A stretch of DNA of 64,000 nt from contig JAFVSK010000023.1 in the NCBI GenBank assembly GCA_017503785.1, positions 1-64,000 on the forward strand, written 5' to 3'. Source of the stretch: Clostridia bacterium (GTDB lineage Bacteria; Bacillota; Clostridia; Oscillospirales; Acutalibacteraceae). Position numbers and translations under genes: made by a program. Below are positions 5,167 to 64,000 of this stretch, one piece after another. The notes below the pieces were generated by a model. The model was not told the DNA's origin, made no database searches, and worked only from the letters and a program-made list of their open reading frames with translations. Each line of letters starts with the position of its first letter. The stretch's first letter is position 1.

Positions 5167-6261
5167 TTACACGTTTTTGGCATCGCGGAAATCCATAACC
5201 AAATGCCAGTCGATCGCGCGAATACTGTGCGGACCCGTCTTAACGTGATAACCGATCGTGCCCTCGTGATAGCCCGTGTTCAGTTCGATCTCGCTTTCCT
5301 CGGGCAAAACAGCACCTTTAACACCATAGATCTTTTCATACACGTCGCTGGCCCAACGGCAAGACAACCGCTCGTGCTCGGGGTCGGCCCACAGATCCTG
5401 CGAACTACTCGCCACGTATACCGGGCGGGGTGCCATGGCAGCTACCAGCATGTGCTGATCGACCGGCAGGGCATCTTCGTTATCGCTATACTGCGAGAAG
5501 TTGCCGCAGAACCAGTCGGTTACCAAAATATTCTTGATATGCTCACCTTGCTTACCGCGCAGCACGGCCGCACCCATACAACCCGAATCGTTGGAATAGG
5601 CCATCGAAAAACGCTCGTCCATAGCGCCTGCCCACAACGCGGTTTTGCCGCCGCGGGAATGGCCCGTGGGGCACACCCGCTTGCTGTCGATCATCGGGTC
5701 GGTTTCAATGTAATCCATTACGCGCGACATAGCCCACGACCACGCAGCGATGGAGGCCCAATCGTCGCCCTTACGTTCGGACGGCTTGGGACCGAGATTG
5801 GCAAAAATGCCGCAATCGTATTCACCTTGTGCTTCCAAGTCGGGATAGATCTCGCTGTTGTAGATAACAAACAATGCATAGCCGCGACCAACGATATCCA
5901 GCACAGGAATGTTGAGATCGTCCATAGCATCAACAATGCAAGAAGATTCCATGTGCCAGTCGTGCATGTTGTGAATAAAGGCCGGTACGGGCTTGTCGGA
6001 ATACGGAATAAAGGCATTGACACGGAAGGTGTAGCCGGGGAACTTTACCCACAGCTGCTTATACATCAACCGATGACCTTTATAATTCTCGCGTTTGTAA
6101 CCCAGTACGAAGCGGAGTCCTTCCGGCTTTTCCACCGGGCGGCGACCGTACACGTGTTCTTGGAATAACTCTAAGATCTCTTCGCGGCGCTCACGCCACT
6201 TTTCTTTTGTGGTGACTGCGTCACCGTTTACCATTTTTAAAAGTTCGGGATACTGTGCCAT
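5167..6261 (-). CDS. CE15-like alpha/beta-hydrolase (glucuronoyl esterase family), no signal peptide
   Basis: A 364-residue hydrolase resembling carbohydrate esterase family 15, which cleaves esters between glucuronic acid side chains of xylan and lignin alcohols. The nucleophile elbow is GHSRGGK (Ser202), followed by ALWAGAMDERF and SNDSGCMGAA patterns typical of bacterial CE15 and acetyl-xylan-esterase-like proteins. His345 in TGPHSIRAIDW fits the catalytic histidine, and an acidic residue in the 287-298 stretch would complete the triad. No signal peptide is visible, so it is probably cytoplasmic and would act on imported oligosaccharides. No other carbohydrate genes adjoin it. Family call fairly firm, substrate uncertain. 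Confidence 0.75.
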   Translation of the reverse strand: MAQYPELLKMVNGDAVTTKEKWRERREEILELFQEHVYGRRPVEKPEGLRFVLGYKRENYKGHRLMYKQLWVKFPGYTFRVNAFIPYSDKPVPAFIHNMHDWHMESSCIVDAMDDLNIPVLDIVGRGYALFVIYNSEIYPDLEAQGEYDCGIFANLGPKPSERKGDDWASIAAWSWAMSRVMDYIETDPMIDSKRVCPTGHSRGGKTALWAGAMDERFSMAYSNDSGCMGAAVLRGKQGEHIKNILVTDWFCGNFSQYSDNEDALPVDQHMLVAAMAPRPVYVASSSQDLWADPEHERLSCRWASDVYEKIYGVKGAVLPEESEIELNTGYHEGTIGYHVKTGPHSIRAIDWHLVMDFRDAKNV

Positions 6262-6371
6262 GGTATACTCCCCTTTCCGTTTTGCAACGACACATTGTTT
6301 TCTTAATTGTACCGATATCCGCTCGTGCTGTCAATAACCTTTTGTACAAAAAACATTGCAATTTGTTGCAT

Positions 6372-6405
6372 AAAAAGGCCGATGGGAATTCCCATCGGCC
6401 TTTTT
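6372..6405 (-). terminator. Terminator after the DegV gene
   Basis: Perfect 15-base-pair stem AAAAAGGCCGATGGG with an AATT loop, giving T-runs on either strand. It lies just past the DegV stop codon. Confidence 0.9.
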
Positions 6406-6415
6406 GTGTTTCAAA

Positions 6416-7303
6416 TTACGCCGTGCGCTCGTCGCCCCAGAAGAACAGTGCCACCGTGCCCGGGCCGGTGTGGCTGCCAATGGTGGTGCCGATATCGTTG
6501 ATCTCCACCTTGCCCTTCAGCTGCGGGAACTTCTCTTCCACCAGATCGGCCACCGCACGAGCATCCTCGTAGCAAGCCGAATTGCACATATAGCACTTGC
6601 CGTCGTAGTTCACACCCTTATCGACGTGCTCGACCATTTGATCGACAATGGCGCGGATCACCTGGCGTTTGCCGCGGATCTTGCTGCGCGGAACCAACTG
6701 GCCCTTGTCGTTCACGTTCAGCAGCGGGCAAATACCCAGCAAACCGCCAAACAAACCGGCCGCCTTGGAAATGCGGCCGCCCTTCACAAAGAACGTAAGG
6801 TCGGTGGCAAAGAACCAGTGATGCAGCTTATTCTTGTTCGCCTCTGCCCAATCACGCACCTCTTCAATAGTGGCGCCGGCATCGCGCAGGTCGGCCAGCT
6901 TATCCATTAACAAGCCAAAGCCCGACGAAGCGGCCAGCGAATCGACAATGTAGATCTTGCGATCGGGATACCGCTCGGCAGCGATGGCCGCTGCATTGCG
7001 CGCCGAGTTGACCGAACCAGAAATACCGGAAGACAGCGCCACGTGGAGAATGTCCTTTCCCTCTTCCAAGATGGAGCAGAAATACTCCAGATATTCCGAC
7101 ACATTGACCTGCGAGGTGGCCGTGTCGGCGCCCTCGGCCATCATGCGATAGAACTCTGCAAACGGAATGGTCTGGCCCAGATCATCGGGATACTCCGTAC
7201 CGTTCAAGCGATAGTGAAAGCAAATATAGTGCAGATCACGCGACTCAAAATGCTCTTTGGTTAAGTCGGCGGTGGAGCAGCAGCTCAAAACGTAGGAACT
7301 CAT
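6416..7303 (-). CDS. DegV-family fatty-acid-binding protein (FakB-like)
   Basis: A 295-residue DegV protein. Family members bind a fatty acid and present it to fatty acid kinase FakA, which makes acyl-phosphate for phospholipid synthesis; a FakA gene lies at 12055. Visible family patterns are the N-terminal CCSTADL, SQVNVSEY, the ALSSGISGSVNSA loop that binds the carboxylate, IYIVDSLAASSG, and FFWGDER at the C-terminus. I chose ATG at 7303 because GGAGG is eight bases upstream; an in-frame TTG at 7318 would overlap it. An extended -10 (TGTTATACT, hexamer at 7354-7359) lies upstream. Confidence 0.92.
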   Translation of the reverse strand: MSSYVLSCCSTADLTKEHFESRDLHYICFHYRLNGTEYPDDLGQTIPFAEFYRMMAEGADTATSQVNVSEYLEYFCSILEEGKDILHVALSSGISGSVNSARNAAAIAAERYPDRKIYIVDSLAASSGFGLLMDKLADLRDAGATIEEVRDWAEANKNKLHHWFFATDLTFFVKGGRISKAAGLFGGLLGICPLLNVNDKGQLVPRSKIRGKRQVIRAIVDQMVEHVDKGVNYDGKCYMCNSACYEDARAVADLVEEKFPQLKGKVEINDIGTTIGSHTGPGTVALFFWGDERTA

Positions 7304-7410
7304 AACATTATCCTCCAAAAATCTGCCCGCAGGCAGTTATTGATTACTCGGCCAGTATAACACACACGCGCGCTTTTTGCACTCTATTCAATTTTAGTAT
7401 ATCCTCTACA

Positions 7411-7455
7411 AAATAAAAACCCGCAGTAGAGTGGCTTTTCTCCACTCTACTGCGG
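7411..7455 (-). terminator. Terminator of the rex-to-ABC-exporter operon
   Basis: A 14-base-pair stem (7421-7434 with 7442-7455) followed on the minus strand by GTTTTTATTTTG. It is the only strong terminator between the rex promoter and this point. Confidence 0.9.
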
Positions 7456-7491
7456 CGAGAATTGCTTAAAACCCCTTGATTTATTAAGGGC

Positions 7492-9189
7492 TTACAGCGC
7501 TGTCAGCTTGCCGTTTTCCAAGCGCAGCACGCGGTCACTTCCGGCCACCGTGGTATCCTTATGCGAGATCAGCAGCACGGCCTTATCGTTTAAGCTACGC
7601 AAATTTTTAAGCAGCCGTTCTTCGGTTTCGGCATCCAGCGCCGAGGTACATTCATCCAAAAGCAAAATGGGAGCATCATGCAGCAGTGCGCGCGCCACGG
7701 CAATACGCTGCGCCTGCCCCTCGGAAACGCCCAAGCCATGCTCACCGAGCACGGTATCAAGTCCCTCGGGCAGCGATCCAACAAATTCATCCAAGCAAGC
7801 AAGGCGCACCGCCGCTTCGACAGCTTCGGTCGACACCTCGCGGAAAAAGGTGATATTGTCCCGAATCGTACCGGAGATCAAGGCGTTGCCCTGCGGCACG
7901 TAGGCCATTATGCAGCGAGTGGCGGCACTCACAGGAACGGACACCTCGCCCTCCAGCGAAATGCTGCCCGCGTCGCACGAGTGGATCGCCAGCAGCAGCT
8001 TCATCAGCGTGCTCTTACCGATACCCGAAGCACCGACCAGGGCGACACACTCGCCGCGGTTCACCGTCAGGTCTACCTGCTGAAGCACCGGTGTGTCTTC
8101 GTCGTAAGCAAAAGAGACCCCCGCCATCACCAGCGAACGGAACCCATCCACCACCGTGCGGCGCGAAGCCGGCAACGTGTTGTCGGTTTCCGGCGGCATC
8201 GTATCGGCCTGCTGCAGCCGCTCTGCCGAGGCCATCATCGCATAATACTGCGGCATGATACCGGAAGCGCTGCGCAACGGTGACTGCAACTGCTCAAACA
8301 CCTGCAGCAACGCTGTTAAGGTGCCCACCGTCATGGTACCGATCGCCAAGCAAAACACGCACCACAGAAGCATTGCGTAATATGCTGCTGTCATCAGTAA
8401 ATACATACCGGTGCTGCCAACGATCTGCACGGTGTTGCGCCGCAGCTTGAAACGAAAATGCTCGTTTTGGCAAGCGTTCATCTCGTTCTCAACAGCGGTT
8501 TCATCGGCAAACGCCTTAACCGACAACAGCTGGGTAAACGCCTCTTGAATGAAGGAGCGTGTTTTGCCATAGGCCTCTTGGCAACGCTTGTGCAGCTTCT
8601 TCAGCTTTGAGCCATAAAAACGGCTGCCGATCACCGCCAGCACTCCGATTGCGGCGATCACTACCGCCAGTTCGGGAGCCAGCACCGCAAGCACCGCCAT
8701 GCTGCCCACAAGCTTGGTGAGAAGCGAGATCGCCGTTGGTGCCAGGCCGGTAACACCTTGAGCCACCACCGTAACGTCACTGGTCAAGCGTGTGATGAGC
8801 TCACCCGAATGGAACGCGTTGATCGCCGTATATTCGGTGTGCAGCAGCGAGGAAAACACCTGCTCACGCAAGCGCATTTCCAGTTTTCCGGAAACGTGTA
8901 CTCGCAATCGGCTGGTGAGCATGTGCAGTATCACCTGCCCCAGCACCACGGCAACCGCCGTAGCGGCAGGTATGTACAACGCGGGATCGGCCAAGCAATT
9001 CCACAAGGTAAGCGACTTGCCGCTTTCCAGCAGCTGCTGTGCGGCTTCAATCAACTCTTTGGACAACAAGGCCAACCATAAATACGCCGCCGATGTCAGT
9101 GCCGAAAGCACCGATAGCAGGATCACACTCGGCAATTGGCGCCGTGTATGCTGCATCAACCATTTTCCGGCGGTTTTATTTACCTTCAC
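7492..9189 (-). CDS. ABC exporter, fused permease-ATPase (peptide export type)
   Basis: A 565-residue half-transporter: six membrane segments (about 15-290), then an ATPase domain with Walker A GASGIGKST, Q-loop YVPQG, signature GVSEGQAQR (a variant of LSGGQ), Walker B ILLLDECTSALD and H-loop LISHKD. It would act as a homodimer pumping a peptide or lipid-like substrate outward. No N-terminal C39 peptidase domain is present, so any leader removal must come from elsewhere, perhaps the S26-type peptidase encoded immediately upstream. The GTG start at 9189 lies inside the end of that gene (14-base overlap), with GGAGG ten bases upstream. Last gene of the operon. Confidence 0.88.
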   Translation of the reverse strand: MKVNKTAGKWLMQHTRRQLPSVILLSVLSALTSAAYLWLALLSKELIEAAQQLLESGKSLTLWNCLADPALYIPAATAVAVVLGQVILHMLTSRLRVHVSGKLEMRLREQVFSSLLHTEYTAINAFHSGELITRLTSDVTVVAQGVTGLAPTAISLLTKLVGSMAVLAVLAPELAVVIAAIGVLAVIGSRFYGSKLKKLHKRCQEAYGKTRSFIQEAFTQLLSVKAFADETAVENEMNACQNEHFRFKLRRNTVQIVGSTGMYLLMTAAYYAMLLWCVFCLAIGTMTVGTLTALLQVFEQLQSPLRSASGIMPQYYAMMASAERLQQADTMPPETDNTLPASRRTVVDGFRSLVMAGVSFAYDEDTPVLQQVDLTVNRGECVALVGASGIGKSTLMKLLLAIHSCDAGSISLEGEVSVPVSAATRCIMAYVPQGNALISGTIRDNITFFREVSTEAVEAAVRLACLDEFVGSLPEGLDTVLGEHGLGVSEGQAQRIAVARALLHDAPILLLDECTSALDAETEERLLKNLRSLNDKAVLLISHKDTTVAGSDRVLRLENGKLTAL

Positions 9190-9652
9190 GTTTCCACCAC
9201 CTCCACATGCGGGAGCCTACTCGAATCAAAAAGGGACGTATGGGACGAACCAACATCCACAAAGCACTGTACAAACGGTACCACACGTTACGGCAGCTTA
9301 CCGTTTTCCCCTTGCGAACGAAACCGGTCATTACCGCCAACACACAATTTTTGGGAAGTCCGCGCTCCAGCTCCTGCTGCGCATCGCCTGCCAAGGTGTA
9401 GGTATCTTTTTTTACCCACAGAATACGGTGCAGAATAAACCGACCGTCAGGGCGGCGATATAACGGCACGTCTCCTCGGCGCAACGCCGTAGGATCGCAT
9501 GCCGATAGGATCACGCTGTCACGCCCATGGCGAAACAACGGCAACATACTGTTGCCGGTAACGCCCAACGTAACCGTCATGCCTTGGCGAAAGGACTCCT
9601 CGATCATCGGCAGCAGTTCGGCCATCGCTACCTGCGATTGTACGGTTTTCAT
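9176..9652 (-). CDS. S24/S26-family signal-peptidase-like protein (Ser-His type)
   Basis: A 158-residue protein of the S26 fold. The catalytic-serine box is GNSMLPLF (Ser35). The usual second box carries histidine (FILHRI, His75) where bacterial LepB has lysine, and AGDAQ (Asp90) follows. This is the Ser-His-Asp pattern of SipW/Sec11-type peptidases. A hydrophobic stretch near residues 127-146 could be a C-terminal membrane anchor. The start codon overlaps the PqqD-like stop codon (ATGA), so the two are translationally coupled. Inference: it trims a peptide substrate before export by the downstream transporter. LepB-type housekeeping peptidases are encoded elsewhere (40923, 42333). Confidence 0.8.
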   Translation of the reverse strand: MKTVQSQVAMAELLPMIEESFRQGMTVTLGVTGNSMLPLFRHGRDSVILSACDPTALRRGDVPLYRRPDGRFILHRILWVKKDTYTLAGDAQQELERGLPKNCVLAVMTGFVRKGKTVSCRNVWYRLYSALWMLVRPIRPFLIRVGSRMWRWWKREGK

Positions 9653-9912
9653 ACCAGCAGTTCCGCCTCTTTCAGCGAAGCAAGGAACGCCGCAACATCG
9701 GCTTTGGCAACCGATTCCTCCACGGCATACTCTGCCAGCAGTGCGGCCAGCAACGTTTCTTCGGTGCAGTCATTTTTTAACTGCTCCCACAAAAATGCGC
9801 CGCTCTCGTTCAGCTTGATAAGACCTTTGAAATCCAGCGTTTGACGACCCACGGCCACCACGATATATTCGCCGCACACGTTGCGCAGAACAAATCCGTC
9901 TTTGATCTTCAT
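9649..9912 (-). CDS. PqqD-like peptide-chaperone domain protein (RRE)
   Basis: An 87-residue single-domain protein. The pattern LNESGAFLWEQL followed by an acidic helix and a C-terminal helix (FLASLKEAELL) is characteristic of PqqD. In ribosomally made, modified peptide pathways PqqD-type domains bind the precursor leader and hand it to modifying enzymes. It lies 12 bases after the HprK-like gene and overlaps the peptidase gene. No precursor gene is adjacent. Confidence 0.85.
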   Translation of the reverse strand: MKIKDGFVLRNVCGEYIVVAVGRQTLDFKGLIKLNESGAFLWEQLKNDCTEETLLAALLAEYAVEESVAKADVAAFLASLKEAELLV

Positions 9913-9924
9913 AATCGTTTCTCC

Positions 9925-10794
9925 TTATAATCCCAACGTTTTATGCACCAGCATCACCGCTTCGGCGCTGGCGGTGCATCCCAGTAAAAGCACCGGCACC
10001 GATTGCACTAACCGCGTTGCCGTATCCCACAGCGTTTCACACAGCGCATCGTCGTGATACGGGAGCGCCAATTCGCGCCCCATATACAAAAGCGCCTCGG
10101 TGGCCGACAAGCGCCGTATTTCGTTGTGAGGCTTCCGCTCCAAAAAGACAATGGCCCTCAGCGGTGCCACCGTATTGGTGTTCAGTTCGGTTTTGCCGCT
10201 CCACGGCGTACCGTACACCAGAGGCTGCCCTGCCTCGGTAAAGCGAATGGCGGGCTTATCGTCGTTAACGGTTACCACGTCATCGCCATACACCTCACGC
10301 CATAAACCTGCGTGAGTGGATTTTCCCGTACCGGAAGGTGCCGAAAACACCAAGCCGTTGCCCTTGTAGGCAATTGACGAGCCGTGCAGTACCATACCGC
10401 CCAGATAGGTCAACCGATCGGAAAACGTAAGACCGGTAAACATATACTCAAAATCCGTGAGCGTTAGCGTGGGGTGCTGCCGGTCCAGCGGAACGCAGAT
10501 CTCTGCTTCGCGGTAATCGGGCGTACAAGTGATGGTTTGCAGCAACCGACCGCTTTTCGGGCCGTACAAGCCACGGAGGCGGCGGCCGTCGCTCAGTTCT
10601 GTCACCCGCAGTCGTTCGTTACATTCTCGCGTGGGCCCCTCGGGGTACGGAATGGTTGCGGGGGTTGAAAAGGTGATCTTCAAATCGGGTGGGCACTCAC
10701 TCTCCTCGCGATAGGCCTGCAGACGGTGCTCAAAAAAGTCGGTATCGGTATTGTTCATGTCAATGACCAAGTCGGCAATGCGAACACGCTGCAC
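9925..10794 (-). CDS. HPr-kinase-like (HprK C-terminal domain) kinase
   Basis: A 289-residue protein whose C-terminal half matches the HPr kinase fold: VLHGSS (135-140), P-loop APSGTGKST (about 152-160) and VNDDKPAI, with the paired aspartates of the HprK metal site. The N-terminal 130 residues are unlike HprK proper. Such truncated HprK homologues occur in peptide clusters such as paeninodin-type lasso peptides, where the kinase phosphorylates the precursor. GTG start at 10794, preceded by a G7-containing Shine-Dalgarno region; 21 bases after the rex stop codon with no terminator between. Substrate here unknown. Confidence 0.8.
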   Translation of the reverse strand: MQRVRIADLVIDMNNTDTDFFEHRLQAYREESECPPDLKITFSTPATIPYPEGPTRECNERLRVTELSDGRRLRGLYGPKSGRLLQTITCTPDYREAEICVPLDRQHPTLTLTDFEYMFTGLTFSDRLTYLGGMVLHGSSIAYKGNGLVFSAPSGTGKSTHAGLWREVYGDDVVTVNDDKPAIRFTEAGQPLVYGTPWSGKTELNTNTVAPLRAIVFLERKPHNEIRRLSATEALLYMGRELALPYHDDALCETLWDTATRLVQSVPVLLLGCTASAEAVMLVHKTLGL

Positions 10795-10815
10795 AGGAGC
10801 CCCCCCTTTCGTTTC

Positions 10816-11451
10816 TTACTTATGCTCCAGCAAATACGATAACGTCATCAGGCTATCGCCCAAATGCACGTTTTCCACCACGACCTCGGGATGTGCTACC
10901 GCGATGTCGTAATGGCTGAAATTCCAAAATGCTTGAATGCCGGCGGCAATTAATCGTTCAGACAACTGCTTGGCAGCCTCTTTGGGAATACACAACGCTG
11001 CCACCGACGGCTGATGCTCGGCACAAAAGGCTTCCAGCTCGCTTGTGGAACGCACGGTGATTCCATTCACCTGTGTGCCCACCAAGGCGGGAGCATCGTC
11101 AAAAATACCGACGAGCGGCAAGCCCTTGCCCGCAAAATCCATGTGGTTAACCACGGCACGGCCCAAATTGCCCAAACCGATAAGAACGGTGCCGTGTGTT
11201 GTGTTAAACCCTAAGATCTGGCGAAGCTCCTCGCACAACCGCTCCACCGGGTAGCCGTAGCCCTGCTGGCCGAATTCACCGAAGCAATTCAAGTCTTGGC
11301 GAATCTGCGAAGCCGTTACGCCCATACGTTCGGCCAAATTGCGCGACGATATCCGCGCTACGCCACTGTCGCGCAGCTCGCAGAAAAACCGATAGTAGCG
11401 CGGCAAGCGGCGCACCACCGACATTGATATGACTGTATCTTTTTCGTTCAT
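10816..11451 (-). CDS. rex: Redox-sensing transcriptional repressor Rex
   Basis: A 211-residue Rex. An N-terminal winged helix (RISSRNLAERMGVTASQIRQDL) is followed by a Rossmann NAD(H)-binding domain with GLGNLGRA. Rex leaves DNA when the NADH/NAD+ ratio rises and so controls fermentation and respiration genes. The ATG at 11451 has AGAGGA seven bases upstream; a TTG two codons earlier is less likely. It is the first gene of the operon that continues into the HprK-like, PqqD-like, peptidase and exporter genes. Confidence 0.96.
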   Translation of the reverse strand: MNEKDTVISMSVVRRLPRYYRFFCELRDSGVARISSRNLAERMGVTASQIRQDLNCFGEFGQQGYGYPVERLCEELRQILGFNTTHGTVLIGLGNLGRAVVNHMDFAGKGLPLVGIFDDAPALVGTQVNGITVRSTSELEAFCAEHQPSVAALCIPKEAAKQLSERLIAAGIQAFWNFSHYDIAVAHPEVVVENVHLGDSLMTLSYLLEHK

Positions 11452-11480
11452 ATCCAATTCCTCTCAAATCTATTCTACTT

Positions 11481-11510
11481 ATTATAAAATATTTTATAGC
11501 CTCTTGTCAA
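11481..11510 (-). promoter_or_regulatory. Promoter of the rex operon
   Basis: Minus-strand TTGACA (11505-11510), an 18-base spacer and TATAAT (11481-11486). Both hexamers match consensus. The -35 lies within the Rex-like operator. Confidence 0.8.
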
Positions 11511-11521
11511 TAATTTATCAA
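11504..11521. promoter_or_regulatory. Rex-type operator
   Basis: The 18-base element TTGTCAATAATTTATCAA matches 12 of 14 fixed positions of the clostridial Rex consensus TTGTTAA-N4-TTAACAA. It covers the -35 of the rex promoter, which predicts autoregulation and control of the whole downstream operon. Confidence 0.7.
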
Positions 11522-11546
11522 ATTTGGTAATCTGTTACATTTCCTC

Positions 11547-11575
11547 TTGATTATCCGAGAAAAATGCGCTATAAT
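11547..11575 (+). promoter_or_regulatory. Promoter of yloU-fakA-recG
   Basis: TTGATT (11547-11552), a 17-base spacer and TATAAT (11570-11575), about 70 bases before the ATG at 11647. It is divergent from rex, and its -35 is 26 bases from the Rex-type operator. Confidence 0.75.
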
Positions 11576-11646
11576 AATGTTGATTGTTCAAAAGCAACCA
11601 ATCAAATCGCAACGTGATAGATTGCACAGAAAGGTGTGTTAACTGT

Positions 11647-12000
11647 ATGATCCGTATTGAAAACCATCTGGGAACCATCGAGATCTCGCAGAGCTATTTT
11701 GCTTACCTGGTGGGTAACGCTGCGTCTTCCTGCTTTGGTGTTGCCGGTATGGTCAAGAGCGGTACGCGGCAAGGCCTGCGTTCCATTTTCACCCGCCGCT
11801 CCTACGCCGACGAAGGCGTTCGCGTGCGCAGCGAAAACGGTAAGCTGGTTGTCGATCTGCATATCTGTGTTATTTACGGTATGAACATTGCCGAAATTTC
11901 CAAGAGCATCGTTAACAAGGTGCGCTACACCGTGGAGGAAGCCACCGGCTTAACGGTAAAGCGCGTGAACGTATATATCGACGGAATGAAATCCGAATAA
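11647..12000 (+). CDS. Asp23/Gls24-family envelope-stress protein (YloU-like)
   Basis: A 117-residue DUF322 protein. The pattern runs from IENHLGTIEISQSYFAYLVGNAASSCFGVAGM to a C-terminal VEEATGLTVKRVNVYIDGM, as in YloU. Its role is unclear; relatives associate with the membrane or envelope stress. In Bacillus yloU precedes yloV (fakA), as here, and recG follows in both. Start chosen at ATG 11647, where the conserved N-terminus begins; AAGGTG lies ten bases upstream. Confidence 0.9.
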   Translation: MIRIENHLGTIEISQSYFAYLVGNAASSCFGVAGMVKSGTRQGLRSIFTRRSYADEGVRVRSENGKLVVDLHICVIYGMNIAEISKSIVNKVRYTVEEATGLTVKRVNVYIDGMKSE

Positions 12001-12054
12001 CGTCTGCGGCTAACGGGCCGGTGTGCCCGTCCGTTCCGAAAAGGAGTGCTACGC

Positions 12055-13719
12055 TTGATACAAGGTAAACAGTTACGCGATGCCATGATCTCGGCATCCA
12101 ACGCGCTTTCCCTGCAAAAGCAGCAGGTCGATGAACTGAACATTTTCCCCGTTCCCGACGGCGATACCGGCACCAACATGTCGATGACGATCTCCGCTGC
12201 CGCACGGGAACTGGCTCGTTTGCAGGAGCCCACTGTCAGCGAAACTGCCGACACCGCCTCCGCTGCGCTGCTGCGCGGTGCACGCGGTAACTCCGGCGTT
12301 ATTCTGTCGCTGCTGTTCCGTGGTTTTTCCAAAGGTCTTAAAGGCAAAACCGAAGCCAACGGCGCCGATTTGGCCGCCGCATTGAAACTGGGTGTCGAAG
12401 CTGCCTACAAGGCCGTCATGAAGCCCACCGAGGGCACCATTCTCACCGTGGCTCGCGAGGCCGCCGAAAAAGGCATTGCCGCCGGCGAAGCCGATCCTTC
12501 GGTGGAACACGTGTGGGAAGCCATCTGCGCCGAGGCCGATGCTTCGCTGCAGCGCACCCCCGATCTGCTGCCCGTGCTGAAAAAGGCCGGTGTGGTGGAT
12601 GCCGGTGGTCAGGGCTTGTATATCATTCTCCGCGCCATGCAAGCTGTGTTCCGCGGCGAGCCCATCGTGGAGGGCGACACCGCTGCCGCCGCGCCTGTAG
12701 CGCGCAAGGCCAGTGCTGCCGGTTCCTTTGAAACCGACATCACCTTCACCTACTGCACCGAGTTTATCGTCGCACGCGATAAGGCCTGCACCAAGGATCC
12801 GCTCCAACTGCGTGCCTACTTGGAAACCATCGGCGATTGTGTGGTGGTAGTTGATGATGAAGAGATCATCAAAGTCCACGTGCACACGAACGACCCCGGC
12901 AAGGCCTTGTCTAAGGGTGTGGAATACGGTCAGTTTGAAACCGTTAAGGTAGAAAATATGCGTATCCAACACGAAAATGCCGGCTGGGTCGACGATGACG
13001 ATGCCGCTCAACCCGTGGTTCCCGCTCGCGCCGAGCCCGAAGAAGAGTTTGGCTTTGTGGCTGTGGCTGCCGGCGAGGGCCTTACCGCTCTGTTTGCCGA
13101 TCTGGGCTGCCAGCAGGTAGTGTCGGGCGGTCAGACGATGAACCCCTCAACTGACGACATTCTGAACGCCATCGAAGCCACCCCCGCCAAGGTGGTATAC
13201 GTGCTGCCGAACAACAAAAATATTATTCTCGCTGCTGAGCAAGCCATCCCGCTGGCCGACCGCGAGGTGCACGTACTCCCCACCCGCACCATCCCGCAGG
13301 GTATTGCCGCCATGCTCGGCTTCGATCCCGATGCCGAGGTTGAGCAAAACCTCACCGCGATGATGAAAGCAGCCGACAACGTGTCGACCGGTTCGGTCAC
13401 CTTTGCCGCACGCGACAGTGATTTTGAAAATCGCGCCATTCACGAGGGCGACATTTTGGCACTGGATAACGGCAAGCTCACCTTTACCGACACCGATGTC
13501 AGCCACGCAACGATCAAGCTTACCCGCAACATGATCACCGCTCGCCGCTTATCCGGTAAGGACGTTTCGTTCATCACCCTTCTGTTCGGTGAGGGCGTCA
13601 CCGAGGAAGAAGCCGAAGGCGTGCGCGCCGCTTTGGCTGCCAAGCTGGGCGACGAGATCGAGATCACCGTTTTGGGCGGTGGTCAACCGGTCTACTACTA
13701 TTTCATTTCCATCGAATAA
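12055..13719 (+). CDS. fakA: Fatty acid kinase catalytic subunit FakA (DAK2 domain, YloV)
   Basis: A 554-residue protein. An N-terminal DAK2/DhaL kinase domain carries the Mg-ATP-binding FPVPDGDTGTNM (about 28-39) and RGARGNSGVILSLLFRG. A middle domain contains the CTEFIV region and a C-terminal DegV-like domain follows. It phosphorylates fatty acids bound by FakB/DegV proteins to acyl-phosphate. AAAAGGAG at 12039-12046 is eight bases before a TTG at 12055, which I take as the start; an upstream GTG overlaps that ribosome binding site. The gene lies 54 bases after yloU. A hairpin follows. Confidence 0.93.
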   Translation: MIQGKQLRDAMISASNALSLQKQQVDELNIFPVPDGDTGTNMSMTISAAARELARLQEPTVSETADTASAALLRGARGNSGVILSLLFRGFSKGLKGKTEANGADLAAALKLGVEAAYKAVMKPTEGTILTVAREAAEKGIAAGEADPSVEHVWEAICAEADASLQRTPDLLPVLKKAGVVDAGGQGLYIILRAMQAVFRGEPIVEGDTAAAAPVARKASAAGSFETDITFTYCTEFIVARDKACTKDPLQLRAYLETIGDCVVVVDDEEIIKVHVHTNDPGKALSKGVEYGQFETVKVENMRIQHENAGWVDDDDAAQPVVPARAEPEEEFGFVAVAAGEGLTALFADLGCQQVVSGGQTMNPSTDDILNAIEATPAKVVYVLPNNKNIILAAEQAIPLADREVHVLPTRTIPQGIAAMLGFDPDAEVEQNLTAMMKAADNVSTGSVTFAARDSDFENRAIHEGDILALDNGKLTFTDTDVSHATIKLTRNMITARRLSGKDVSFITLLFGEGVTEEEAEGVRAALAAKLGDEIEITVLGGGQPVYYYFISIE

Positions 13720-13729
13720 TTTGCGGTTT

Positions 13730-13767
13730 AAAGCCGATAACGCCCCGCGTTATCGGCTTTTGCTTTT
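13730..13767 (+). terminator. Terminator-like hairpin between fakA and recG
   Basis: 14-base-pair stem (13730-13743 with 13747-13760), CCC loop, then TTGCTTTTG. The T-run is interrupted, and recG begins 16 bases later, so it may only attenuate recG transcription. Confidence 0.7.
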
Positions 13768-13782
13768 GAAAGGAGGAGAATC

Positions 13783-15825
<2,043 letters not shown>

Positions 15826-28793: not shown

Positions 28794-29804
28794 ATGAAAC
28801 GGATCGGCTTGATTCTTCTCGGTTTGACGGTGCTTTTGGCATCTCTTTGCGGCTGCGATGCGAAAGAGACACAAAAAACATCAGAGACGACAACGACGAC
28901 AACGATAACCGCGCCATCGGATACGCAGTGGCGATTGCGCTCCGTCAGCATCGAAGCGGATGATATTTTCTATTCGCAAGGCACACCGAACTATCAATTT
29001 TGTGTTATCCAAAAAGGTGAAAAATACGGTATTGTTGATTTTGGAGGTACTGTCATCGTTCCCATCGAATATCCGGCCATTAGTCTCAGAGAAATCGCCC
29101 CACACAGCCCGATTACCGTACTGACGGCTCTAGACTACCCCAATGCCTGGCATTTTGAAGCCGACGGCACCGTCTCTCCCGTCGAATACGACGCCTGGGG
29201 ATACACGGATGGATACGATGTGTACTGGCATAACGACGCGCCCGTTCTCTCCTGCCACGATGAATTTATAAAGCCCTTCACATATAAGGATTATGTGGAA
29301 CTGACCGATCCGCGCGGCTCACTCGGCTCATACGTTGTCGACGCGACGCCCGTGCTCGCTATACGGGAGATCGTCGCTCTCAACGAAAACCCCGAGCATC
29401 CCGAACTCATGGTTGAAAAGCTTTCCGACAACTATGCCCTTTTTGATGCAAAAAAGCAAACCTTGATTACGGATTTCATCTATGAGGATTACGCCTATAT
29501 CGGATTCGTCGACGGATTGGCGGCGGTTAAAAAGAACGGTAAATGGGGTTACATCCGCGAGGATGGCACTGCTGTGACCGAGTTTATCTACGATGCCGTG
29601 TACGAAGACCCTTGGATGGGTGCTGATCTGTATTCTGTCACCAACGGCTACATCGTTGTCCGTCGCGGCGATAAGTACGGTTTAATTGATAAAAGAGGAA
29701 AAACCATCATCGAACCTGTCTATGAGAATATCACCGCCGTGACCGACAAGGGGCTTTTCTGGCTCAAGAAGGACGGCGTGTGGCACGTAGGCGAGATCCT
29801 GTAA
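28794..29804 (+). CDS. WG-repeat lipoprotein
   Basis: A 336-residue secreted protein. Residues 1-20 form a lipoprotein signal with lipobox LCGC (Cys21), followed by a Thr-rich linker (about 30-40). At least three WG-type repeats are visible: KYGIVDFGGTVIVPIEY, KWGYIREDGTAVTEFIYD and KYGLIDKRGKTIIEPVYE. These short beta repeats occur in surface proteins of Clostridia and their ligands are mostly unknown. AGGGAGGCG precedes the ATG. A single-gene unit between two copies of the same terminator, which suggests the gene arrived or duplicated as a cassette. Confidence 0.85.
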   Translation: MKRIGLILLGLTVLLASLCGCDAKETQKTSETTTTTTITAPSDTQWRLRSVSIEADDIFYSQGTPNYQFCVIQKGEKYGIVDFGGTVIVPIEYPAISLREIAPHSPITVLTALDYPNAWHFEADGTVSPVEYDAWGYTDGYDVYWHNDAPVLSCHDEFIKPFTYKDYVELTDPRGSLGSYVVDATPVLAIREIVALNENPEHPELMVEKLSDNYALFDAKKQTLITDFIYEDYAYIGFVDGLAAVKKNGKWGYIREDGTAVTEFIYDAVYEDPWMGADLYSVTNGYIVVRRGDKYGLIDKRGKTIIEPVYENITAVTDKGLFWLKKDGVWHVGEIL

Positions 29805-29816
29805 GTAGCACAACAC

Positions 29817-29854
29817 AAAAGCGGAGAAAGACGGTTGTCTTTCTCCGCTTTTTT
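29817..29854. terminator. Terminator after the WG-repeat gene (copy 2 of the repeat)
   Basis: Identical over 38 bases to the terminator at 28677-28714. It lies between convergent genes and can work on both strands. Confidence 0.93.
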
Positions 29855-29858
29855 CAGC

Positions 29859-30032
29859 TTATTTGCACTCGAACGACTGGCAGTCCGTGCACTGGCAATC
29901 GGTGGGGTTCATTTCGTGCGTACCCACCTGGATCGAGTTCAGCGAGCAGTAGTTGCCCTGCGAGCAATGATAACGACACTGCTGCACGGTGCACTGGATC
30001 GCCTTGTTTTCCTTACAAGTGTTGGTTTCCAT
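29859..30032 (-). CDS. DUF1540 cysteine-rich small protein
   Basis: A 57-residue protein with nine cysteines. The pattern IQCTVQQCRYHCSQGNYCSLNSIQVG ends in CTDCQSF, as in DUF1540 proteins of spore-forming Firmicutes, thought to bind metal. ATG 30032 has AAGGAGGTACCGG upstream. Function unknown. It follows the 50-residue peptide gene by 98 bases and may have its own promoter. Confidence 0.85.
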   Translation of the reverse strand: METNTCKENKAIQCTVQQCRYHCSQGNYCSLNSIQVGTHEMNPTDCQCTDCQSFECK

Positions 30033-30130
30033 ACCGGTACCTCCTTCAGCTGATTCGACGGACACAACAATGCCGCCACAACTAGTTTACCCGGCTGTAA
30101 CCAAAATACACGATTGGAAAATTTTAAAAA

Positions 30131-30283
30131 TCACACCCACGGTGTCCAAACGCCGCTTTGCGTTTGTGCGTAGGTCTGCGGCTCATCGCCATCGTCCACG
30201 CTGAGCGAAGCCAGCTGCTCCGGCATAGTCAGGGTTAACAGCTCCATTTCAGGTGATACATAGGTCTTCTTTTGCGATGCCAT
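30131..30283 (-). CDS. Small 50-residue peptide with leader-like Y-x-x-P motif
   Basis: A short reading frame, ATG 30283 to TGA 30131, with AAAGGA nine bases upstream. The peptide starts MASQKKTYVSPEMELLTL, turns acidic (DDGDE near 30-34) and ends TQSGVWTPWV. The Lys-Lys-x-Tyr-x-x-Pro-x-(Leu/Met) arrangement resembles the leader motif that PqqD-type domains bind in lasso and related peptides. It starts 14 bases after the engB stop codon, on the same strand, so it can be read from that operon. It may be a modified-peptide precursor or simply an uncharacterised small protein. Confidence 0.6.
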   Translation of the reverse strand: MASQKKTYVSPEMELLTLTMPEQLASLSVDDGDEPQTYAQTQSGVWTPWV

Positions 30284-30297
30284 ACGTCTTCATCCTT

Positions 30298-30882
30298 TCA
30301 TTCTTCTGTAACTTCTGCCAAAATTGCACGAAGCTCGTCCACGCCTTCGCCGTTTAACGAGGAAAACGGAATGTATTGCAATCCCTCGTAGTCGGCAAAG
30401 GCTTCGGCGAATACCGCCATCTGTGCTTCGCGTTGCGATTTGTTCAGCTTATCCGATTTGGTAAGCACCACCACGAACGGCAAGCCGCTTTCCGCCAAGG
30501 CTTCCAGCATTTGCTTGTCATCGGCTGTGGGCGGATGACGCATATCAATGAGCTGCAACACTAGGCGCAAGTCACGGTCGTCACCTAAATACCCACCGAT
30601 CGCCTCGGAAAATCGTTGCTTTTCCGAGCGTGACAGCTTGGCATAGCCGTAGCCCGGCAGATCGACCAAGCGCATCGTATCCAACCGATAAAAGTTCACG
30701 GTGATAGTCTTACCGGGAGTGGCGCTGGTGCGCGCCAACGATTTGCGGTTAAGCACCCGATTGATGAGTGAGGACTTACCCACGTTGGAACGCCCCGATA
30801 CGGCCACCTCCGGCAACTCCGACGGCGGCAGCTGGCTGCCGATTCCTACCGATAATTCAAATTGCGCGGATTCGATTTTCAT
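30298..30882 (-). CDS. engB: Ribosome biogenesis GTP-binding protein EngB (YsxC/YihA)
   Basis: A 194-residue GTPase for large-subunit assembly. G1 is GRSNVGKSS, the switch region has TSATPGKT, G3 is DLPGYGYA and G4 is LTKSDK. The ribosome binding site AAGGAGG lies within the end of lon, 16 bases away. The lon-engB order is conserved in Firmicutes. Confidence 0.96.
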   Translation of the reverse strand: MKIESAQFELSVGIGSQLPPSELPEVAVSGRSNVGKSSLINRVLNRKSLARTSATPGKTITVNFYRLDTMRLVDLPGYGYAKLSRSEKQRFSEAIGGYLGDDRDLRLVLQLIDMRHPPTADDKQMLEALAESGLPFVVVLTKSDKLNKSQREAQMAVFAEAFADYEGLQYIPFSSLNGEGVDELRAILAEVTEE

Positions 30883-30898
30883 AACTGCCGCCTCCTTC

Positions 30899-33232
30899 TT
30901 ACATGCGCAACGCCGTTTTCAGCACAGTGTCCATACTGCGTGCGGTAACAAAGTTCAGTTTACCTCGCACCGCCTCATCCAACTCTGCCAGATCGGGCTC
31001 GTTGGCCTGCGGTATCACCACCGTCGTTAAATTGTGACGGTAGGCCGCCATGGTTTTTTCTTTTAAGCCGCCAATGGGCAGCACGCGGCCGCGCAGCGAG
31101 ATCTCGCCCGTCATAGCCACGTCGTGACGAACGGGAATTCCCGTAAGCGCCGACACCATTGCCGTTGCCATCGTAACACCGGCCGAAGGACCGTCCTTAG
31201 GCACAGCGCCCTCCGGTACGTGAATGTGAATATCCTTCGTCTTGTAGAAATCGCCGTCGATCTTCCAGTCGTCGGCGCGGGAACGCACGTAACTGATCGC
31301 CGCACGCGCCGATTCCTTCATCACGTCACCCAACGAGCCGGTCAGCTCCACCTTGCCGGTGCCGTCCATAACGGCCACCTCAACCGGCATGGTTTCACCG
31401 CCCACGGCCGTCCACGCCAGGCCGTTCACCACACCCACCTCGTCGGTTTTGGCGGTTTCATCGTCCTTGAAACGGCGCGGGCCAAGATACTCTTCCACAC
31501 TATCGGGACGGATAGACAAACTCGTCACTTCGCCGGAAACGATTTTCTGCGCGCTCTTGCGGCACAGCGTTCCCAACGCACGCTCTAAATTACGCACACC
31601 GCCTTCGCGGGTGTAGCCGTCGATCAACAGACGAAGCGTGGCATCGGTAATGCGCAGCTGGCGACTGCTTAACCCGTTTTGCTTCAGCTGCTTTTTCACC
31701 AAATGCTTGCGGGCGATATGAAACTTTTCCTCGGCCGTGTAGCTGGACAGGGTAATCACGTCCATGCGGTCATACAGCGGTGCGGGAATATCCTCGGCCG
31801 TGTTCGCGGTGGTAATGAACAACACCTGCGACAGGTCGTAAGGCATTTCTAAGTAATGGTCACGGAACGCCACATTCTGCTCGGTATCCAGCACCTCCAG
31901 CAGCGCCGACGACGGATCGCCGTTCGGCGACGAGGCCAGCTTGTCGATCTCATCCAGCAATATCAGCGGATTGGAGGTTTTTGCCTGCACAAGAGCCTCA
32001 ACAATACGGCCGGCTTTGGAACCGATATACGTGCGGCGGTGACCGCGGATCTCGGCCTCGTCACGCACGCCGCCGAGCGACACGCGCACGTAGGTGCGGC
32101 CCAATGCCTCGGCAATGGATTTGGCAATGGAGGTCTTACCCACGCCGGGAGGGCCCACAAGGCAAATTACCTGCCCTTTGGTGCCGCCCGTGAGGCAACG
32201 CACTGCCAGTAATTCCAGAATACGTTCTTTCACTTTTTTTAAGCCGTAGTGATCGCGCTCCAGCACGGCGCTTGCAGCCTCTAAATCCAACCGTTCCTCG
32301 GAATACACACCCCACGGCAGGCTAAGGCAGGTATCCAAATACAAGCGGATCACCGTGGCCTCGTGTGAACCAAACGGCATTTTTGCCAATTTGTCACATT
32401 CCTTCAGCAGCTTTTGCTCCACGTCCTCCGGCAAGTGACGTTCGCGGATGGTGCGGCGCAATTCCTCCGACTCACCCAGCGGATCATCCTCCTCGCCCAG
32501 CTCCGAGGCGATCACCTTCATTTGCTCGTGGAGATAATAGTCGCGCTGATTTTTATCAATAGACGCTTGTACGCGCTGCTCAATGCCGCGCTCCAGTTCC
32601 AAAATCTCATTTTCACTCACCAGAAGCCGCAGCACTGCTTGCAGGCGTTCCTCCAGCGTGAGAGCATCCAGCACCGGCTGTTTTTCCTCGGCAGGTGCCG
32701 GCAGCGCATCGGCAATAAGATCGGGCAACAGCCCAATATCACGGCACAAGGCCACGCGGTTGCGCACGTCCTCGGTGATCTCGCCGGACAAGGTAGCATA
32801 GCGAATAAACTGTGCATGACATTCCCGACGGTAAGCCGCTGCTGCAGACGGGTCACGCAGGCTACGCGTTAAGCACTCTTTCACTTCGACCATGCACACC
32901 GGATCGTTTTGGATCACGGTGCGAATCCGTGCGCGGTACTGTGCTTCCACCGTTACACGCAAGGTGTCCGACGGCATACGCAGTACCTGACGAACACGCA
33001 CCACCACACCGGTCTGACACAGTTGATCGAGGGTGGGATCGTCGTCCTCTACGTTGGTTTGCGAAACTAAAAACAGGCATTGATCGGCTGCCATAGCCTC
33101 CTGCAGGGCGGCTATGGATTTTTCGCGCCCCACGTCGAAATGAACCGAGGTTTGCGGAAACACCACCAATCCGCGCAGTGCCAACAGCGGCAACGTGGCA
33201 ATGCGCGATACCCTTCTTTGTAACGAATTCAT
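30899..33232 (-). CDS. lon: ATP-dependent protease Lon
   Basis: A 777-residue LonA. The N-terminal substrate domain starts at LPLLALRGLVVFPQT, the AAA domain has Walker A GPPGVGKTS and Walker B ILLDEIDK, and the protease domain has the catalytic serine in KDGPSAGVTMA and lysine in GGLKEKTMAA. It degrades misfolded and regulatory proteins in the cytoplasm. ATG 33232 is eleven bases after AGGAG; an in-frame GTG at 33244 overlaps that site. Same strand as clpX. Confidence 0.97.
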   Translation of the reverse strand: MNSLQRRVSRIATLPLLALRGLVVFPQTSVHFDVGREKSIAALQEAMAADQCLFLVSQTNVEDDDPTLDQLCQTGVVVRVRQVLRMPSDTLRVTVEAQYRARIRTVIQNDPVCMVEVKECLTRSLRDPSAAAAYRRECHAQFIRYATLSGEITEDVRNRVALCRDIGLLPDLIADALPAPAEEKQPVLDALTLEERLQAVLRLLVSENEILELERGIEQRVQASIDKNQRDYYLHEQMKVIASELGEEDDPLGESEELRRTIRERHLPEDVEQKLLKECDKLAKMPFGSHEATVIRLYLDTCLSLPWGVYSEERLDLEAASAVLERDHYGLKKVKERILELLAVRCLTGGTKGQVICLVGPPGVGKTSIAKSIAEALGRTYVRVSLGGVRDEAEIRGHRRTYIGSKAGRIVEALVQAKTSNPLILLDEIDKLASSPNGDPSSALLEVLDTEQNVAFRDHYLEMPYDLSQVLFITTANTAEDIPAPLYDRMDVITLSSYTAEEKFHIARKHLVKKQLKQNGLSSRQLRITDATLRLLIDGYTREGGVRNLERALGTLCRKSAQKIVSGEVTSLSIRPDSVEEYLGPRRFKDDETAKTDEVGVVNGLAWTAVGGETMPVEVAVMDGTGKVELTGSLGDVMKESARAAISYVRSRADDWKIDGDFYKTKDIHIHVPEGAVPKDGPSAGVTMATAMVSALTGIPVRHDVAMTGEISLRGRVLPIGGLKEKTMAAYRHNLTTVVIPQANEPDLAELDEAVRGKLNFVTARSMDTVLKTALRM

Positions 33233-63083: not shown

Positions 63084-63117
63084 AAAAGCAGGGTCGCCCA
63101 CGGGCGGCCCTGCTTTT
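63084..63117. terminator. Bidirectional terminator
   Basis: Near-perfect stem AAAAGCAGGGTCGCC with four-base loop (one G-T pair), A-run and T-run on the two sides, between convergent DUF378 and ackA genes. Confidence 0.88.
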
Positions 63118-63126
63118 GTTAAACGG

Positions 63127-64000
63127 TTAAATAAGGGCTTTGGTATCGCGAGCGATAACGAGCTCTTCGTTGGTGGGAATGACGAATGCGCGCACAGCCG
63201 AATCGGGCGTGGTGATCTCTTGGATCTGGCCGCGCACCTTATTGGCTTCGGCATCCAGCTTAACGCCCAGATAGGACAAGCCTTCCAGCAGCTCGGCACG
63301 CAGGCGATCTTGGTTTTCGCCGATACCGGCGGTGAACACGATGGCATCCAGGCCGCCCAGTGCAGCAACGTAGCCGCCGATGTACTTGAGGATCTGGTAG
63401 CTGCGCATATCCCAAGCCAGTTTGGCGCGGGGGTTGCCCTCATCCATAGCGGCCGTGATGTCGCGATCGTCGCTCGACACGCCGGAAATGCCCAGCATGC
63501 CGGACTTCTTGTTCATAACGTCATCCATCTGCTTGGGCGTGAGGCCTTCTTTTTCCATTAAGAACGTAACGACCGACGGGTCGATAGCGCCGCTGCGAGT
63601 GCCCATGAGGAAACCGTCGAGCGGGGTCATGCCCATGGTGGTGTCGATAACCTTGCCGTCCTTCAAAGCAGCCAGCGACGAGCCGTTGCCCAGGTGGCAG
63701 GTGATGATGCGAGTGCCCTTACCGTCGGGCTTGCCCAACAATTCGCAGCAGATGGCCGACACAAAGCGGTGCGACGAGCCGTGGTAGCCGTAGCGGCGGA
63801 TGCCGTAATCGGTGTAGTACTCATACGGCAGACCCCACAGATAAGCAACCTCGGGCATGGTCTGATGGAAGGCGGTGTCGAACACGGCGACCTGCGGAAT
63901 CTCGGTGCCGAAGGTTTCGGTAGCGGCCTCAATGCCCTTCAGGCAGGCCGGATTGTGCAGCGGTGCCAGCACTTCGTATTCACGAACAGCCTTGAGCACC
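63127..64000 (-). CDS. ackA: Acetate kinase, 5' end beyond the window
   Basis: The C-terminal 291 codons of AckA, which makes acetate and ATP from acetyl-phosphate. FDTAFHQTMPEVAYLWGLPYEYY, YGYHGSSHRFV (catalytic His), HLGNGSSLAA, DTTMGMTPLDG and FTAGIGEN are all present. The frame is open to base 64000, so the N-terminal hundred or so residues lie outside. A Rex target in many Clostridia, though its promoter is not visible here. Confidence 0.96.
   Translation of the reverse strand, partial: VLKAVREYEVLAPLHNPACLKGIEAATETFGTEIPQVAVFDTAFHQTMPEVAYLWGLPYEYYTDYGIRRYGYHGSSHRFVSAICCELLGKPDGKGTRIITCHLGNGSSLAALKDGKVIDTTMGMTPLDGFLMGTRSGAIDPSVVTFLMEKEGLTPKQMDDVMNKKSGMLGISGVSSDDRDITAAMDEGNPRAKLAWDMRSYQILKYIGGYVAALGGLDAIVFTAGIGENQDRLRAELLEGLSYLGVKLDAEANKVRGQIQEITTPDSAVRAFVIPTNEELVIARDTKALI

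Follow-up and report, generated by a model that had tools for sequence, protein, structure and literature searches.

The first 64,000 nucleotides of contig JAFVSK010000023.1 of a Clostridia bacterium (Oscillospirales, Acutalibacteraceae; assembly GCA_017503785.1), hereafter the window, contain a five-gene set in which the redox-sensing repressor gene rex is followed by genes for an HprK-like kinase, a PqqD-like protein, an S24/S26 peptidase and an ABC exporter. An earlier reading of the same DNA, hereafter the original prediction, proposed that the last four genes recognise, phosphorylate, cleave and export a peptide under the control of Rex, and noted that no precursor gene is adjacent. The locus therefore raises the question of what these enzymes act upon and whether Rex governs them. 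We consider it likely that the four genes downstream of rex act together as one maturation station, serving the whole genome, for linear phosphorylated peptides of the LPP (linear polyphosphorylated peptide) type, that the precursor genes are scattered over the genome, mostly after genes for secreted proteins, and that the station is controlled by Rex. The machinery, the precursors, their pairing with secreted proteins, their co-occurrence with the kinase, the linkage to rex within the genus and an operator-like box were all read from sequence.

The operon and its proteins

All five genes are intact and lie on the minus strand (Table 1). Open reading frame (ORF) coordinates agree with the gene order and spacing given in the original prediction: from rex to the exporter gene, neighbours are first spaced 21 and 12 bases apart and then overlap by 4 and 14 bases. 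The promoter at 11510-11481 is the sole promoter-like minus-strand site listed within 7000-11800; the 21 bases that separate rex from the kinase gene are too few to hold a promoter, and no minus-strand promoter-like site was found there. The terminator claimed for the end of the operon is present as a stem followed by a T run, and weaker terminator-like minus-strand sites occur inside the genes, for example at 11419-11394 and 11120-11106; terminator-like sites in the scanned region numbered 14 versus a mean of 6.2 in shuffles. An alternative in-frame TTG start of rex is found at 11457.

Rex was identified by Pfam domain matches (1.7e-20 and 1.3e-12) and an NCBIfam equivalog match above cut-off, the exporter by its ABC exporter domains in Pfam, and the PqqD-like protein is the sole PqqD match in its genome. 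The S24 Pfam match of the peptidase is weak (0.023, below cut-off). Residues G33, S35, M36, P38, H75, R76, G89 and D90 are invariant in 51 out of 51 relatives, and the invariant S35 and H75 bear out its assignment as a Ser-His peptidase of the S26 type; we infer that D90 corresponds to D93 of LppS, the peptidase of the LPP system described below. As no 19-residue stretch rises above a hydropathy mean of 1.6 in any of the 51 relatives (highest 1.59), the peptidase looks like a cytoplasmic relative of SipW and Sec11. A search of the PDB with the single peptidase sequence gave no match. The kinase is putatively HprK-like by weak profile matches and by motifs (P-loop, NDDKP and others) that are near-invariant across 41 relatives; its gene linkage fits, but none of the profile matches exceeds its cut-off and no Pfam match was obtained. 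Against the PDB the kinase gave spurious matches alone and no solved kinase was matched.

A comparable set is known from Bacilli as the LPP family, comprising LppA, the kinase LppK, the RiPP (ribosomally synthesized and post-translationally modified peptide) recognition element (RRE) LppB, the SipW-like LppS, the pump LppD and the nucleoside triphosphate (NTP) transferase LppN (Popov et al., Nat Commun 2026, published May 2026, PMC13381572). According to the main text of that paper, the system was shown experimentally with genes of Paenibacillus alginolyticus, LppK phosphorylates Ser3 repeatedly, LppS together with LppB removes the leader, and no role is known for the peptides; the authors looked for precursors up to 5 kb from the cluster and reported conserved N-termini and variable C-termini (PMC13381572). 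The window set and its relatives resemble this system in the putatively HprK-like kinase, the discrete RRE of the PqqD type, the SipW-like peptidase, the MsbA-like exporter, the YxxP leaders and the links of relatives to capsule loci. By this analogy, the view of the last four genes as a set for peptide recognition, phosphorylation, cleavage and export would hold. The window set differs in having Rex in front and no NTP transferase in the operon; moreover, precursor genes in its genome are scattered, most of them paired with a gene for a large secreted protein, whereas LPP precursors lie in the cluster. The paper's main text contains none of the words surface, S-layer, secreted, Clostridia, orphan and Rex, and neither dispersed precursors nor pairing with secreted proteins is reported there (PMC13381572). 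It was the sole paper found under the LPP family name. The titles and abstracts listed on related kinases, PqqD proteins and peptidases described nothing like this system, and the main texts of two papers on RREs do not mention kinases or S26 peptidases. When the PqqD-like profile was compared to structures, TbiB1 scored 43.7 bits (2.4e-10), TfuB1 37.8, 9x90 33.3 and 9x8z 31.9 bits. We take 9x8z to be LppB, which is a guess, the structure codes not being found in the text of the LPP paper.

Conservation of the cassette and discovery of precursors

The kinase was searched for in 245 genomes of the order and in a sample of 200 genomes of the family, resulting in matches in 67 and 99 genomes, respectively. 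Close examination of 69 kinase loci (the window and 68 fetched stretches, some of them cut by contig ends) showed a PqqD gene near the kinase in 54 and an S26 gene in 51; ABC-like genes were near it in 25 (17 at E<=1e-50), and rex was near it in 2, the window and L100. The first two of these frequencies exceed chance, and the kinase, PqqD and S26 genes form a conserved unit. For a second set, titled genome records supplied 589 confirmed loci, of which the best 80 were used; a kinase was called in 76.

In the loci of Desulfosporosinus hippei, Ruminiclostridium cellobioparum and a Peptococcaceae genome (L131, L136 and L138), short ORFs with a common start like M-K-x-Y-x-K-P were found among PqqD, radical SAM and kinase genes. 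A precursor profile was built, after a motif scan, from 23 such ORFs and run against 25,905 small ORFs in 149 sequences, which include a few loci that are the same DNA fetched twice; E-values of these searches are inflated for ORFs used in building the profiles. The search returned 52 small ORFs at E<=0.0012, spread over 36 of the 149 sequences. For the 49 located in loci with a called kinase, 48 shared the strand of the kinase and 47 lay no more than 4 kb upstream of it, the exceptions being one in L185 (opposite strand) and the window ORF at 30131-30283, 19 kb away. With a clean profile of 29 rows, taken exclusively from other genomes, the window ORF stood out from 736 small window ORFs, the runner-up having an E-value of 0.18, and it is preceded by a ribosome-binding-like AAAGGA. 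As the original prediction had it, no precursor, cyclase or radical SAM gene was found beside the operon among the genes identified; the nearest precursor is this distant one, whereas many relatives have one near the cassette. An apparent extra copy of it on contig G000:C17 (3175 bases; L200, L232) was rejected as an assembly duplicate, being identical over the 1500 bases compared (window 29501-31000). After the window precursor lies a small Cys-rich ORF, METNTCKENKAIQCTVQQCRYHCSQGNYCS... (29859-30032, minus strand), which presumably resembles a DUF1540-type protein.

Peptides and kinase were then compared across the family sample under the same search setting, genome labels agreeing among the matches listed. 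Peptides at E<=0.01 were present in 50 of the 200 genomes, the largest number being nine, in G310; every one of the 50 belonged to the 99 genomes with a kinase (hypergeometric 1.1e-19, kinship ignored). Removal of the nine genomes that had supplied the profile left 41 out of 41 with a kinase (7.5e-17, again ignoring kinship).

For position counts, 104 distinct peptides were gathered and 9 were dropped for lack of a [YF]xxP anchor or insufficient length. The remaining 95 include the window ORF and exclude six shared-core peptides treated below; positions are counted from Tyr = 0. Leaders have an acidic pair at positions 13-14 and a small residue at 17. Position 17 is Thr, Ala or Ser in 77 of the 95 peptides and a serine occurs at positions 18-20 in 80, both being counts that are not independent of the selecting profile, which covers these positions. 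As far as can be read from sequence, the counts agree with a leader that is bound through YxxP and cut off behind the small residue at position 17.

An identical core in six dispersed genes

Six more precursor genes were found in the source genome, on five contigs. Their leaders differ and yet the last 19 residues, ALAAVVQSEPTVEDDDLSV, are identical in all six peptides. In the codons for this core, 17 of 19 vary synonymously, and pairs of genes differ at 4-16 of 57 bases with zero amino-acid changes. The core remaining unchanged under synonymous codon variation shows strong selection on the peptide itself. A repeated piece of DNA was ruled out by these differing codons and by flanks that are unrelated in the five genes compared. 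Identical cores with varied leaders are the reverse of the conserved N-termini and variable C-termini of LPP precursors (PMC13381572). Within the genus, genome G438 has the core ALAAVIQSEPTVEDNDDDLSV twice and TLAAVIQSEPTVEDNDEDLST once, so that the core would seem to undergo concerted evolution in each species. Cores differ from locus to locus in G310 and other genomes.

Pairing with large secreted proteins

Five of the six dispersed genes directly follow, at distances from a 1-base overlap to a 20-base gap, genes for proteins of 985-1312 residues with signal-peptide-like starts (domains in Table 1). The surroundings of 40 of the peptide matches listed for the family sample, mostly the best among those new to the analysis, were inspected for the same arrangement. 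They held 47 peptides, of which 35 had a same-strand gene within 400 bases upstream and 12 did not. Within 200 bases upstream there were 28 distinct genes with a median length of 1020 residues, and 24 of them have a signal-peptide-like start. Twenty of the 28 look secreted and encode at least 400 residues, compared to 17 of 150 other genes of at least 100 residues (Fisher 1.5e-10; kinship ignored). Of the 19 that lie no more than 30 bases from the peptide, 18 look secreted. Domains in six scanned paired proteins include cohesin, CBM26, InlB-type repeats and Cna_B. Simple tests for LPXTG, a dockerin motif and a C-terminal membrane stretch were negative in all 32 paired proteins (the 28 and four from the source genome). 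Two pairs are of separate note: the gene for a cohesin (scaffoldin-like) protein in L280 (2008-6462) has an LPP-type peptide gene directly behind it, and the paired secreted protein of L287 (1854-6488) bears a ubiquitin-family domain (PF00240, 1.4e-15) close to its start.

Pairing with large secreted proteins, often carbohydrate-acting or adhesive, offers a possible role for LPP peptides, either in surface-protein assembly or in signalling tied to secretion. A more speculative reading, to which we give a minority weight, is a clostridial RiPP system of one station and many substrates, in which large secreted proteins without a recognisable anchor are each made with their own precursor, and the phosphorylated core, matured by the Rex-controlled station, would be the tag or linker that holds or activates the protein at the surface; concerted evolution of the core might then arise since all copies must fit the same surface partner. 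A competing possibility, likewise given a minority weight, is that the peptides act as secreted signals (pheromones) or as regulators instead of binding the secreted proteins as physical partners, the secretion operons all adding to one species-specific signal. The identical core from six loci here, the different and nearly uniform core in G438, and an AraC-type regulator gene adjoining the L227 pair would suit a signal, but cores that differ between loci in G310 are odd for one and no receptor was identified.

Linkage to rex and redox control

Seven of nine genomes of the genus gave kinase matches, six of them with one at least 46% identical to the window kinase. In all four genus genomes that can be read at this point (the window, L100, L320 and L317) rex precedes the orthologous kinase, so that homologous clusters do adjoin rex; in G379 and G435 the kinase gene begins right at the contig end and its upstream side is unreadable. 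The proposed linkage of the cassette to rex holds within the genus but was seen nowhere outside it, both rex-bearing loci among the 69 being from the genus. In the set drawn from titled records as the best 80 of 589, rex was found in 1 of the 76 kinase-called loci, L120, which is letter-for-letter contig L320 of genus genome G434 and not an independent case.

A first Rex pattern, TTGTG-N9-CACAA, was dropped as it occurred at chance level (242 found vs 244.9 expected). We assumed TTGTTAANNNNTTAACAA as the clostridial operator form. At no more than 2 mismatches it occurs in 11 places in the genome, including TTGTCAATAATTTATCAA on the operon promoter, where the original prediction had expected Rex to be able to bind. 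In G436 a near-identical box, TTGTCAATCTCTTATCAA, is found in the matching intergenic region before the aconitase gene (L317 3291-3308), and a Rex-like box is thus present, by sequence match, in both genus promoters that are readable. A box with 1 mismatch stands just before an adhE-type gene of the source genome, adhE being a typical Rex target. Clostridial Rex operons begin with rex, bear a Rex-type palindrome at their own promoter and carry fermentation genes downstream; the window operon resembles them in the first two respects and differs in that its downstream genes are for peptide maturation. Further Rex-type boxes were observed at window 63116-63133 (2 mismatches), G000:C45:11438-11455 (0) and G000:C32:90781-90798 (1).

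The five stretches of the source genome with the six shared-core genes hold no Rex box at up to 2 mismatches. Therefore at most the machinery, and not the supply of precursors, would be under Rex, and this is how regulation appears from the sequence. The earlier idea of a module behind Rex is retained for the machinery but the set is not self-contained, its precursors being dispersed.

It is possible, though we doubt it, that the linkage reflects inherited synteny and that the peptide genes escape redox control, an internal start or processing uncoupling them from rex. Linkage in one genus only would be in keeping with this, as would a neighbourhood in flux: the exporter comes and goes, not being found after the S26 gene in L100, L102 and L316, and an aconitase gene lies before rex in L317 (1308-3248) and L320 (3-1136) but not in the window. 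Rex-type sites at no more than 3 mismatches are moreover at chance (97 vs 94 for the reversed pattern), which also counts against Rex control. Set against this, the gap between rex and the kinase gene is short and free of promoter-like sites, linkage is found in every readable genus genome and the box in both readable promoters. In L317 the Rex-like box is separated from rex by the aconitase gene, and in L100 the apparent last residues of aconitase lie upstream of rex.

Proposed mechanism and remaining alternatives

In the proposed mechanism, the PqqD-like protein would bind the YxxP leader and the kinase would phosphorylate a serine shortly after it. The PqqD-like protein would then feed the cytoplasmic SipW-like peptidase, the leader would be cut near the small residue at position 17, and the ABC pump would export the acidic core, which may act outside the cell with the co-encoded secreted protein as a tag, anchor, partner or signal. 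At low NADH, Rex would repress the station, so that maturation would follow redox state, whereas precursor supply would follow the regulation of each secreted protein. Phosphorylation, cleavage, export, redox control and the partner role are here drawn by analogy from work on LPP and from knowledge of the families. A gut-type bacterium seems, then, to keep its trimming, phosphorylation and export machinery behind a redox regulator and its peptide genes scattered. All precursors found in the source genome lie away from the operon, which suggests that precursor searches limited to a few kb around the enzymes miss distant ones, and if Rex control is true, redox state would set whether surface peptides mature in an anaerobe.

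Several observations weigh against this reading. All NCBIfam matches of the kinase are below cut-off (ScmC 2e-4, HprK_rel_A 0.017, also HprK_rel_B), and the RRE profile does not favour the structure guessed to be LppB over lasso B1 proteins. Genome G438, itself 83% complete, contains three strong peptides but gave no match to the kinase, and a peptide at E<=0.01 is missing from 49 of the 99 genomes with a kinase. The gene before the window precursor is a GTPase and not a secreted protein. The sixth dispersed gene, in L229, has 962 bases of contig upstream without a secreted-protein gene, and a 329-residue Big_2 protein downstream. The six shared-core peptides keep Ala at position 17 and have their first serine at 22, not at 18-20; their cut site or phosphosite may differ. 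LPP clusters carry LppN, but no NTP transferase was found in the operon neighbourhood (5167-15825), and of the LPP motif YxxPxVLxHQxIxFETxxS (PMC13381572) YxxP alone occurs here, the remainder being different. With no NTP transferase in the operon, a differing leader motif and no precursor near the cluster, the window set is, by analogy, one that works like the LPP system as a variant and not a strict member.

An unlikely alternative would place the operon in a surface polysaccharide (capsule) system, with short ORFs that are bystanders or affect no more than the translation of the secreted-protein operons. Several relatives do have capsule-type surroundings (CpsB, Wzz, VanZ, sugar transferase and NTP_transf_5 genes), and the NTP_transf_5 (PF14907) gene of the source genome, on C41 and unlinked to the operon, adjoins a sugar nucleotidyltransferase gene. 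Selection on the peptide, seen as synonymous variation over an unchanged core, and the co-occurrence of peptides with the kinase speak against it, as does the action of the homologous Paenibacillus set on a peptide (PMC13381572). Least probable of all, and to be given very little weight, is that the cassette has become a relic, or has another local peptide as its substrate, the YxxP peptides belonging to a different pathway: the missing neighbouring precursor and the peptides of G438 would allow it, but all five genes are intact, the genome's sole PqqD match lies here, all 50 peptide genomes of the family sample have the kinase and relatives' peptides lie directly upstream of it.

Other related systems and neighbouring features

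Lasso peptides of the paeninodin type are also described in the LPP paper (PMC13381572). No match to their B2 leader peptidase (Transglut_core3) was obtained in the source genome (95% complete) at the search threshold, and among the genes identified beside the operon there is no lasso cyclase, no genome-wide search for a cyclase having been made. The window set shares with such systems the B1-type RRE, the putatively HprK-like kinase and an exporter, and differs by a SipW-like peptidase instead of the B2 peptidase of transglutaminase fold. The SynChlorMet/HPr-rel-A systems (TIGR04249, TIGR04352, TIGR04353) have a kinase and a PqqD-like protein of similar type; here the scores are far below cut-off and the operon is without a radical SAM gene.

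Table 1. Features of the window and domains of proteins paired with dispersed precursor genes.
Feature	Position	Strand	Basis or remarks
Sigma-70-type promoter	11481..11510	minus	TTGACA-18-TATAAT, 12/12 matches; consensus match alone
Putative Rex-type operator TTGTCAATAATTTATCAA	11504..11521		spans -35 element of rex promoter; 2 mismatches to TTGTTAANNNNTTAACAA
rex, redox-sensing repressor	10816..11451	minus	ATG start; NF003990 7.3e-81, above cut-off
HprK-like peptide kinase, LppK-type (predicted)	9925..10794	minus	GTG start; weak ScmC/HprK-related matches, motifs, linkage to PqqD and S26 genes
PqqD-like leader-binding protein, LppB-type (predicted)	9649..9912	minus	PF05402 3e-18
Soluble SipW/Sec11-like serine peptidase, LppS-type (predicted)	9176..9652	minus	sigpep_I_arch 2.6e-7 (below cut-off); Ser35/His75/Asp90 invariant
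ABC exporter, MsbA-like, LppD-type (predicted)	7492..9189	minus	TIGR02203 5.9e-80 (below its equivalog cut-off)
Intrinsic terminator	7421..7455	minus	14-pair stem and T run
Precursor-like peptide gene MASQKKTYVSPEMELLTLTMPEQLASLSVDDGDEPQTYAQTQSGVWTPWV	30131..30283	minus	unlinked; 14 bases after EngB-like GTPase gene; E=6.4e-9
L227, paired protein			metallophosphoesterase, LamG, Big_2
L228, paired protein			Big_2
L230, two pairs			DUF4886
L231, paired protein			polysaccharide deacetylase

A radical SAM gene lies beside PqqD in the cassettes of L131 (8387-9505), L136 (8349-9467) and L138 (8262-9383), and that of L131 gave ScmE and ScmF matches below cut-off. Several of the precursor-like peptides nearby bear Cys residues, and these three loci may represent a sactipeptide-like offshoot of the family. 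Two genes past the operon, the window contains a gene for a glucuronyl-esterase-like protein (5167-6261, minus strand; PF22244, 2.5e-30).

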